From Gammaproteobacteria bacterium (lineage in GTDB: Bacteria; Pseudomonadota; Gammaproteobacteria; Pseudomonadales; Halieaceae), in contig JANSYN010000005.1 of assembly GCA_024742415.1 (NCBI GenBank), positions 62,001 through 126,000 on the forward strand: a DNA stretch of 64,000 nt, written 5' to 3'. A model generated the notes under the pieces. The model had not been told where the DNA came from. It worked only from the letters and a program-made list of their open reading frames with translations, and did no database searches. Shown here in pieces: positions 46,124 through 48,112 of the stretch (within the stretch, counting starts at the first letter, position 1; each line of letters opens with the position of its first letter). The position numbers were made by a program, and so were the translations under genes.

Positions 46124-46978
46124 TTATGCGGCCAACGCCGAACGCAGTTTCTTCATGGCAGCTTGCTCGATCTGCCTGACACGCTCAGCTGACACTGAAT
46201 ACTCGGCGGCCAGCTCGTGCAATGTTGCCTTGTCGTCGGCCAGCCAACGGCGTGTGAGGATATCCCGGCTGCGCTCATCCAGCTCCGCCAGGGCCTGATG
46301 CAGCTGCGCCTCGCTGTTTTCCTGCCAGTCACTGGATTCAACGACCTGCGCGGGATCAGCGCTGCGATCCTCCAGAAAAAACTGCGGCGATTGCCAGGCA
46401 TCGTCATCATCGCTATCGGTGGGCTGGTCAAAACCGAGATCGCGGCTGCTCAGGCGGCCCTCCATGCGCTGCACTTCCTGCACATCGACTCCCAGGTCAT
46501 CGGCGACGGCTTGAGCCTCTTCCCTGGTCAACCAGGCGAGGGTCTTTTTTGCGCTGCGCAGGTTAAAGAAAAGCTTGCGTTGCGCCTTGGTAGTCGCGAT
46601 TTTTACGATACGCCAATTCCGCAAGATGAATTCGTGCATCTCAGCCTTGATCCAATGCACCGCAAACGATACCAGGCGCACGCCCTTCTCGGGATTGAAG
46701 CGCTTCACCGCTTTCATCAACCCGACGTTACCTTCCTGGATCAGGTCGGCCTCTGCCAAACCGTAACCGGAATAGCTGCGCGCAATGTGTGCCACAAATC
46801 GCAGGTGGGACATGACCAGCTCACGGGCAGCATTCAGGTTGTTGTTGTAATAGAGATCCTCAGCCAACTCGCGCTCGCGCTCGGGCGTCAGGATGGGGAT
46901 ACTGCTGACCGCCTGCACATAGGCCGCCAGATTGGCGCCTGGTACCAGCTGGTCTATCGGTTGCAGTGTTGTGCTCAT
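46124..46978 (-). CDS. rpoH: RNA polymerase heat-shock sigma factor RpoH (sigma-32)
   Basis: A 284-residue sigma-70-family factor. ATG at 46978 follows GGAGGATCC and gives MSTTLQPIDQLVPGANL, the usual start. Region 2 is AEADLIQEGNVGLMKAVKRFNP (split at about 74-95) for core binding and -10 contact; the RpoH box QRKLFFNLRS is at about 130-139, confirming sigma-32 rather than RpoD or RpoS. Region 4 near the C-terminus (LHELAAEYSVSAERVRQIE) reads the -35. It lies downstream of ftsX, the E. coli and Pseudomonas order (ftsY-ftsE-ftsX-rpoH). A CIRCE element sits in its leader (47011-47037). Confidence 0.97.
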   Translation of the reverse strand: MSTTLQPIDQLVPGANLAAYVQAVSSIPILTPERERELAEDLYYNNNLNAARELVMSHLRFVAHIARSYSGYGLAEADLIQEGNVGLMKAVKRFNPEKGVRLVSFAVHWIKAEMHEFILRNWRIVKIATTKAQRKLFFNLRSAKKTLAWLTREEAQAVADDLGVDVQEVQRMEGRLSSRDLGFDQPTDSDDDDAWQSPQFFLEDRSADPAQVVESSDWQENSEAQLHQALAELDERSRDILTRRWLADDKATLHELAAEYSVSAERVRQIEQAAMKKLRSALAA

Positions 46979-47010
46979 CGCAGGATCCTCCCTGTGGTTC
47001 TTTGCCAATT

Positions 47011-47037
47011 TTAGCACTCTTTGCATTAGAGTGCTAA
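47011..47037. promoter_or_regulatory. CIRCE operator (HrcA binding site) in the rpoH leader
   Basis: TTAGCACTC-N9-GAGTGCTAA, with both nine-base arms exactly matching the CIRCE consensus and the spacer exactly nine bases (TTTGCATTA). It lies 33 to 59 bases before the rpoH ATG, the usual place for CIRCE near or in the 5' leader. HrcA represses genes carrying CIRCE, commonly groESL or dnaK; presence before rpoH would place sigma-32 under HrcA. No hrcA is in this window. The leader transcript could also fold through the same inverted repeat. Confidence 0.92.
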
Positions 47038-47116
47038 TTCCACAAAAGTTCCATCCTGCCTGTGGAAAAGTCGTATTATTTATTGTTTTTCAACATGTTA
47101 CCTATGATGCCGTCGT

Positions 47117-48112
47117 CTAGCGAGGCTCTATTTTCGACAAATGCCGCGTCACGGCCAGCCAGGCACCGGCCAGGCCAAGCAGCCCTCCGAGAATCACCAG
47201 ATTAAGGACACCCATCACACCGGGCCCAACAACAGAAAAGTTGCTTTTGTAGAGAGCTGCCAAGCTCGCCACCGGCTCATCGACAAACCACAGGGCCGCC
47301 GCCACCAACAGGCCCGCACACAGACCGCCACCCACTCCATACCACAGCCCGGTATACAGGAAGGGGCGGCGTACAAATGCGTTGCTGCCCCCTACGAGCT
47401 TGACCACGACTATTTCATCGCGACGGCCCTCAATGGCAAGCCGGATGGTGTTGCCCAGAATGAGAATGACCCCCAGCACCAGCATGGCTCCGATCATCAG
47501 CACCGCCCGGCGGCTCAATTCCAGCAGTGACTGCAGGCGCTGCAACCAGGCCATATCAACCACGACCTCGTCGACATCCTCAAGGGCGGCCAGTTCGTCG
47601 CGCAGGGCTGCCACCGCTTCACTGGCCAAATCGCGTCGGGGCGTCACCAGCATGACATCCGGCAGTGGGTTTTCCTGCAGGCTCTCGATGACATCGGCGA
47701 AACCGGAAAGCGCCGCAAACTCACTCAGAGCGGCCTCGCGCGATACAAAGTTGACACTATCGATCTGGTCGTGCTGCTGCAGTGACGCTGTCATGGCAGC
47801 GGCGCGCTGGGCATCCACATCTTTTGTCAGAAAAATGGACATCTGTGCGGGGCTGTCCCAACCAGCGCCAAGGCGATCGACATTGTCCAGCGCAACGCTA
47901 AAGCCCACGGGAAGCGCCAGGGCAATACCAATGACCAGCCACGTCAGCATACTCGCCGCGGGTCGTTCCAGAACCTTGAGCAGGCTTTGCGCGGCAGACA
48001 GGCGATGGTGCTGCAGCCATCCACGCAACTGGTGCGATACCTGCGCGCGGCTCTGGCTCGCTCCCGCCCGACCAGTGGATTTGCCCGGCGCCTGATGGTC
48101 AGCGACGCCCAT
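47117..48112 (-). CDS. ftsX: Cell division protein FtsX
   Basis: A 331-residue permease-like protein with a short N-terminal cytoplasmic tail, a first helix (about 56-78), a periplasmic loop (about 80-200) and three more helices near 205-230, 255-280 and 295-320. The periplasmic stretch MSIFLTKDVDAQRAAAM and PLPDVMLVTPR fit FtsX. With FtsE it moves no known substrate but activates peptidoglycan hydrolases at the septum. The ATG overlaps the ftsE stop by one base. Between it and rpoH lie about 140 bases with the CIRCE site. Confidence 0.95.
   Translation of the reverse strand: MGVADHQAPGKSTGRAGASQSRAQVSHQLRGWLQHHRLSAAQSLLKVLERPAASMLTWLVIGIALALPVGFSVALDNVDRLGAGWDSPAQMSIFLTKDVDAQRAAAMTASLQQHDQIDSVNFVSREAALSEFAALSGFADVIESLQENPLPDVMLVTPRRDLASEAVAALRDELAALEDVDEVVVDMAWLQRLQSLLELSRRAVLMIGAMLVLGVILILGNTIRLAIEGRRDEIVVVKLVGGSNAFVRRPFLYTGLWYGVGGGLCAGLLVAAALWFVDEPVASLAALYKSNFSVVGPGVMGVLNLVILGGLLGLAGAWLAVTRHLSKIEPR

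Follow-up and report, generated by a model that had tools for sequence, protein, structure and literature searches.

A perfect CIRCE element before rpoH in a Halieaceae genome overlaps predicted sigma-E and sigma-70 promoters and is a probable HrcA operator

The gene encoding sigma-32, rpoH, lies on the minus strand at 46124-46978 of the window, meaning the whole 64,000-nucleotide stretch of DNA that was analysed. Its product of 284 amino acids matches TIGR02392 above the cut-off (E 3.4e-120). The ATG start codon is at 46978-46976 and is preceded by a ribosome-binding site, GGGAGG, at 46987-46992 on the same strand. Profile searches place ftsX, ftsE and ftsY upstream of rpoH. The immediate neighbour is ftsX (47117-48112, minus strand; TIGR00439, E 2.1e-99), and the ftsX-rpoH order is the same in the E. 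coli K-12 record. Between the two genes, at 47011-47037 on the minus strand, is an exact CIRCE operator, which reads TTAGCACTC-TAATGCAAA-GAGTGCTAA along the rpoH strand. The earlier note had reported a perfect CIRCE in the rpoH leader, and this stands. Inspection of the sequence finds both 9-base arms perfect around a spacer of nine bases, and the profile match confirms the gene as rpoH. The location also suits an HrcA operator, with a heat-shock gene starting 32 bases downstream. The complete order leading into the gene is GGAACTT-TTGTGGAA-TTAGCACTC-TAATGCAAA-GAGTGCTAA-AAT...GGGAGG...ATG.

This is the sole CIRCE match in the 64-kb window when up to three mismatches are allowed. At the same tolerance, dinucleotide shuffling yielded 0.03 matches on average (three of 100 shuffles had a single match), and base composition predicts 4.9e-7 exact matches in 64 kb. 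The spacer happens to contain an ATG (47026-47024) that is in frame with rpoH, and a mechanical reading of the frame adds 16 codons to give 300 amino acids. This upstream start is probably unused and was discarded, as both the ribosome-binding site and the family alignment favour 46978.

The idea that HrcA acts here would have little appeal if the genome had no hrcA gene, as the earlier note recognized. The gene is present and intact. The source assembly (4.14 Mb in 27 contigs, 99.65% complete) encodes an HrcA of 347 amino acids (TIGR00331, E 1.8e-95, over the cut-off; Pfam HrcA, E 4.5e-60), with grpE after it. Across the whole assembly there are two CIRCE sites at up to three mismatches, and both are exact. 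One precedes rpoH and the other precedes groES of groESL, a chaperone locus among those that the earlier note had proposed to search for further sites. No CIRCE is present upstream of hrcA at this tolerance, and autoregulation of hrcA in the source genome was rejected on that ground. The predicted HrcA regulon, again at up to three mismatches, would consist of groESL and rpoH. The genome also encodes RpoE (G000:C12; TIGR02939, E 3.2e-94, over the cut-off).

Conservation was examined at several depths, beginning here with the family. Among 120 Halieaceae genomes, a full rpoH scoring above the curated cut-off occurs in 112 and a partial gene that includes the 5' end in two others, which gives 114 upstream regions (loci L005-L034, L095-L174, L194 and L298-L300); the other six contributed no piece of rpoH. 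A CIRCE with no more than one mismatch precedes rpoH in 112 of the 114. The two without it (G022 and G032) are on contigs that end 4 and 1 bases upstream of the gene. In 111 aligned family rows the 18-base palindrome has no mismatch in 92 and one mismatch in 17, and is cut by contig ends in two. hrcA was detected in 114 of the 120 genomes, and the six misses are in genomes that are 73-88% complete. In one single-contig genome hrcA matches as two overlapping pieces in different frames (G033:C1:3067296-3067957), a probable frameshift, and the CIRCE before its rpoH (L095) is retained with one mismatch. The hrcA of G081 is likewise matched as two pieces.

Beyond the family, the presence of CIRCE before rpoH tracks the presence of hrcA. 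The draw at the level of the order contained 86 genomes, 30 of them with hrcA. Of these 30, three are family members and two lack a full rpoH, leaving 25. CIRCE at up to three mismatches precedes rpoH in all 25, versus none of the 25 hrcA-less genomes examined, which are not a random sample of the 56 available but the best rpoH matches returned plus G154. The class draw contained 85 genomes, 56 with hrcA. Here 51 hrcA-bearing genomes (52 rpoH copies) were examined, the rest being the source genome itself (G000) and four without a full rpoH. The hrcA-less group comprised 23 of 29, with G154 already counted under the order and five genomes lacking a full rpoH. At the same tolerance the site is present in 47 of the 51 versus four of the 23. 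Order and class combined give 72/76 hrcA-bearing versus 4/48 hrcA-less genomes, or eight exceptions among 124. Four of the exceptions have hrcA but no CIRCE at rpoH (G238, G273, G227 and G214). The other four have the CIRCE and apparently no hrcA; these are G207 (62% complete), G239 (81%), G217 (97%) and G276 (99%). A separate oddity is G233, which has two rpoH copies (L204 and L205), one with a CIRCE (one mismatch) and the other without.

How much of this is shared ancestry? Of 61 full RpoH proteins placed on a tree, 32 come from genomes with both hrcA and the CIRCE, none from genomes with hrcA alone, two from genomes with the CIRCE alone and 27 from genomes with neither. Four independent pairs could be drawn on well-supported branches, with a mean of 3.6 concordant and none discordant. 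A sign test for joint loss on these four independent hrcA differences gives p 0.125, which is not significant, and the tree test of the association is suggestive. Conservation of both arms among relatives, on which the earlier note had staked its proposal, holds both in the family and in the wider hrcA-bearing genomes. Among the hrcA-bearing Gammaproteobacteria sampled, a CIRCE at rpoH is apparently the usual condition. The sequences are best explained by HrcA control of rpoH, since hrcA is intact and the operator is perfect, conserved and tracks hrcA. The suggestion that this might be special to the present lineage does not survive.

A strict pattern scanned across the phylum matched 6 of 299 genomes, all six among the 87 Gammaproteobacteria and none among the 212 outside, with a pattern too stringent for measuring prevalence. 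Five of the matches precede rpoH and one precedes a clpB-like reading frame. A composite of sigma-E-like element and CIRCE is seen before a reading frame that we take to be clpB-like at L414 (G273:C8:47854-47898), in an hrcA-bearing genome without CIRCE at rpoH. Another variant is L197 (G211:C61:202422-202982), where two CIRCE-like sites stand in tandem upstream of rpoH, TTAGCAGTC-N9-GAGTGCTAA and, five bases on, TTAGCACTC-N9-GAGTGCTAA. Each of them is followed by AAT, and GGAACC lies farther upstream.

The position of the operator relative to promoters is the second part of the argument. The consensus for sigma-E promoters is GGAACTT, a gap of 15 to 17 bases, and TCNNA. The stretch GGAACTT-N15-TCTAA at 47052-47026 fits this pattern. 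The predicted sigma-E -35 element (GGAACTT; 47046-47052, minus strand) lies 8 bases upstream of the CIRCE. The predicted -10 element (TCTAA; 47026-47030, minus strand) takes its TC from the left arm and its TAA from the spacer. A consensus scan also predicts an extended sigma-70 -10 element, TGC-TAAAAT (TGCTAAAAT), at 47008-47016 on the minus strand, formed by the right arm and the AAT that follows. The full match is TTAGCA-18-TAAAAT with the TG, from 47037 to 47008, and agrees at 9 of 12 consensus positions. It is the only sigma-70-type match in the 401-base region, where shuffles lead one to expect 0.3.

Taken alone, the sigma-E pattern is not enriched genome-wide (3 matches versus 6 in the reversed control). 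Since it occurs at chance level, the sigma-E assignment rests on positional conservation. When family genomes with a short leader are aligned on the CIRCE, a near-invariant GGAACTTT precedes it, the spacer starts with TAA in nearly all, and a T three bases past the right arm is invariant. This T, called T30, occupies the position equivalent to 47008. With GAAC counted if it starts 13-16 bases before the CIRCE, and with L298-L300 outside the counts, the 71 short-leader genomes have GAAC in 70, TCNNA in 70 and T30 in 71. The corresponding figures are 23, 18 and 38 of the 38 long-leader family genomes and 54, 57 and 69 of the 72 wider hrcA-bearing genomes with CIRCE. T30 is present in 109/109 family genomes overall. 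The background for GAAC is 38 of 1525 nine-base windows farther upstream (2.5%). The sigma-E overlap is not universal, as the -35 element is missing in 15 of the 38 long-leader and 18 of the 72 wider genomes and the -10 element in 20 and 15, respectively. Nothing on the opposite side of the palindrome is conserved as a partner to T30, which is hence not part of the operator. A sigma-E-like element is also found upstream of the source genome's own rpoE, and the strict motif occurs in only 10 of 30 family rpoE upstream regions (1 of 30 when the reverse strand is read).

The CIRCE sites of groES served as a control. Thirty family sites were used (31 were examined, and L281 was dropped since no groES frame was recognised). 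They have GAAC in the same window in 0/30, a TAA spacer in 0/30 and T30 in 1/30. The bases that follow are mostly CCTTGAAA or CCTTGAAT, which we take by consensus to be a sigma-32 -35 element. At L002:1501-1560 and in 29 further family groES upstream regions, CTTGAA, by consensus presumably the sigma-32 -35 element, comes about 4-9 bases after the CIRCE. This spacing indicates that operator and promoter are adjacent at groESL, not merged.

A composite pattern, GAACT-N9-CIRCE, was also scanned through one genome per species for 84,980 species. It found 102 stretches, 99 of which are followed by rpoH according to tblastn. A further one (L340) ends early and resembles the start of rpoH by eye, and another (L406, Acaryochloris) has too little downstream DNA to judge. 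A single composite in a Bacillus methanolicus record (L399) is not before rpoH. Among the matches listed are Haliea, Parahaliea, Halioglobus, Pseudohalioglobus, Kineobactrum and Chromatocurvus, together with Oceanicoccus, Aquabacterium, Leptothrix and Thiobacillaceae records.

We put a probability of roughly 0.7 on the reading that the CIRCE is a working HrcA operator which represses rpoH and overlaps both a sigma-E promoter and a sigma-70 promoter with an extended -10 element. HrcA binding, repression, use of the two promoters and the signal to which they respond are what we infer from this arrangement. Bound to the CIRCE, HrcA would lie across the two -10 elements as well as the predicted sigma-E start and would keep RNA polymerase out. 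Both promoters would be blocked, one of them apparently the counterpart of P3 at E. coli rpoH. Under stress HrcA would become inactive and both would open, with rpoH mRNA then made by the housekeeping polymerase and, if the envelope is stressed, by the sigma-E polymerase. Sigma-32 would in turn drive groESL, where a CTTGAAA-like sigma-32 -35 element comes after the CIRCE, and other heat-shock genes. In Bacillus, HrcA activity depends on GroEL, and HrcA is inactive under stress because GroEL is busy. It is in this sense, by way of GroEL, that the repressor might be titratable as the earlier note proposed. Given that dependence, low free GroEL might be what opens rpoH transcription, amounting to transcriptional feedback from GroEL onto sigma-32.

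What if the operator is real but the promoter lies elsewhere? Transcription might begin upstream, in or after ftsX, with HrcA acting as a roadblock or from a distance and with GGAACTT and TAAAAT as coincidences. The chance-level count of the sigma-E pattern in a single genome would fit this arrangement, and the short-leader family profile does have an AT-rich stretch about 30 to 60 bases before the CIRCE. However, GAAC and T30 keep the same place with respect to the CIRCE in many genera and families but are nearly absent at the groES CIRCE of the same family, and T30 lies outside the palindrome with no symmetric partner. We regard a promoter farther upstream as unlikely, and an operator merged with its promoters as the better description.

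Genomes without hrcA bear on another possibility, that the CIRCE is a relic, weakly bound or unused, and is kept only because each half also serves as part of a promoter. A strict sigma-E-like match (GGAACTT..TCNNA) lies no more than 450 bases from rpoH in 21 of the 48 hrcA-less genomes and in none of the other 27. Retention of this match without hrcA would agree with the relic idea, as would the part of the right arm that a few of these genomes retain. However, 44 of the 48 have no CIRCE, and the family maintains all 18 bases of the palindrome, even those in the left arm for which a promoter has no use. A relic therefore seems very improbable beside a working HrcA operator. About as improbable is that the inverted repeat acts as a hairpin in the rpoH mRNA, affecting stability or translation. 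CIRCE hairpins have been reported to affect mRNA in Bacillus, and a site 32 bases ahead of the start codon is placed as a leader element might be, but this reading was rejected on the association with hrcA, the absence of any Rfam match and a fold no better than shuffles for RNA from about the predicted sigma-E start (z -0.05). Moreover, genomes differ in the distance from CIRCE to gene start, which ranges from about 19 to 180 bases, and transcription is predicted to start inside the repeat or beyond it, in which case the mRNA would lack the hairpin. The look for an RNA thermosensor of the E. coli rpoH type, a stable structure over the ribosome-binding site and early coding region, gave the same z-score and no Rfam match.

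If HrcA does hold rpoH by this operator, what happens when hrcA is lost? The right arm was scored against shuffles in the 21 hrcA-less genomes with a sigma-E-like match, allowing offsets of -2 to +3, and seven reach p <=0.05. Two of the seven (G276 and G207) still have a CIRCE at up to three mismatches. A third, G177, which belongs to the same family as the hrcA-bearing G136, has both arms intact around a spacer of 10 bases. In G179, G171, G157 and G175 the right arm (7/9) is better preserved than the left. Three of the remaining genomes give p 0.059 to 0.075 and 11 give nothing. An earlier scoring of a hand-picked set, 14 hrcA-less genomes and E. coli K-12, was kinder (p <=0.05 in 8 of 15), and within that set K-12 scores p <0.002 at offset +3. 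A few hrcA-less genomes keep pieces such as CAGTGCTAGACT after the sigma-E-like match. The pattern is suggestive of a CIRCE decaying around its promoter letters, and only suggestive because just four genomes beyond those with a near-whole CIRCE exhibit decay clearly.

In E. coli K-12 the sequence before rpoH is TTGAACTTGTGGATAAAATCACGGTCTGATAAAACAGTGAATGATAACC (GAACTT then TCTGA), which we take to be the known sigma-E promoter P3. Perhaps, then, the ancestral gammaproteobacterial rpoH promoter was a composite in which an HrcA operator gated sigma-E and sigma-70, and the E. coli sigma-E promoter is a remnant of the CIRCE. This is a tentative proposal to which we give somewhat less than even odds. 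The ancestor would have had a 27-base operator whose left arm and spacer provided the sigma-E -10 element and whose right arm provided the extended -10 element for sigma-70, and HrcA would have been the gate through which both housekeeping and envelope-stress input reached sigma-32. With loss of hrcA, for example in the E. coli lineage, the operator would decay around its promoter letters. On this view one could trace step by step how an HrcA-gated rpoH evolved into the one seen in E. coli.

Textbook heat-shock control has HrcA repressing chaperone genes or sigma-32 activating them. The arrangement here suggests that the two controls are wired in series, as the repressor's site sits on the activator's own promoter, apparently a common condition in Gammaproteobacteria that kept hrcA. 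DnaK feedback acts on the activity of sigma-32. HrcA, if the reading is true, would add transcriptional feedback on sigma-32 synthesis beside it, and sigma-E input to rpoH, and with it the response to envelope stress, would be conditional on HrcA.

In the portions of the open-licence literature at hand, nothing was seen on a CIRCE over a sigma-E promoter or at a gammaproteobacterial rpoH, although Permina and Gelfand (2003), who reportedly treat HrcA/CIRCE in the beta, gamma and epsilon groups, may list rpoH sites. The only prediction of CIRCE at rpoH seen in those portions is for Geobacter sulfurreducens (Rodionov et al., 2004; PMC545781). The available parts of PMC3224663, PMC11764788, PMC9866376, PMC3135505, PMC10696704, PMC3989490 and PMC7563307 hold nothing on CIRCE at rpoH, the last of these describing more than one start site for Cupriavidus rpoH, and PMC5343134 mentions neither HrcA nor rpoH nor heat shock. 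Within that partly available literature, we claim as new the promoter overlap, its breadth and the hrcA association, the CIRCE at rpoH itself having been predicted before (PMC545781).

Three known systems are close to the one described here. The portion of PMC545781 available gives Geobacter sulfurreducens, called a delta-proteobacterium there, as the one species with an rpoH site in its Table 8, at -51, with other CIRCE sites at groESL and hrcA-grpE-dnaKJ. As here, an exact CIRCE precedes rpoH and another is at groESL, and in both cases these are predictions without experiment. The differences are that Geobacter lies outside the Gammaproteobacteria, that no sigma-E promoter overlap is seen in that portion of the paper, and that its hrcA operon has a CIRCE whereas hrcA of the source genome has none.

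The second system is rpoH of E. coli, which has sigma-70 promoters neighbouring P3 and an RNA thermosensor. P3 itself is a sigma-E promoter (PMC8103513, in the part available). The likeness lies in the ftsX-rpoH intergenic region, with GAACTT then TCTGA in the K-12 sequence. The difference is that E. coli has no HrcA match among the control genomes and no CIRCE was seen upstream of its rpoH. The earlier note had set a CIRCE at rpoH against the E. coli type of control. The CIRCE is indeed present, but sigma-E and multi-promoter control has not been replaced, since the CIRCE overlies what is apparently the same sigma-E promoter.

The third is the repression of groESL by HrcA at CIRCE, as in Bacillus. 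It is also described for Agrobacterium and Xylella (in the available part of a review) and for rhizobia (in that of PMC3989490). Operator and repressor are the same, and groESL of the source genome has a CIRCE too. The difference is that the target at 47011-47037 is the gene for the heat-shock sigma factor, which would place the activator of the entire regulon under the repressor.
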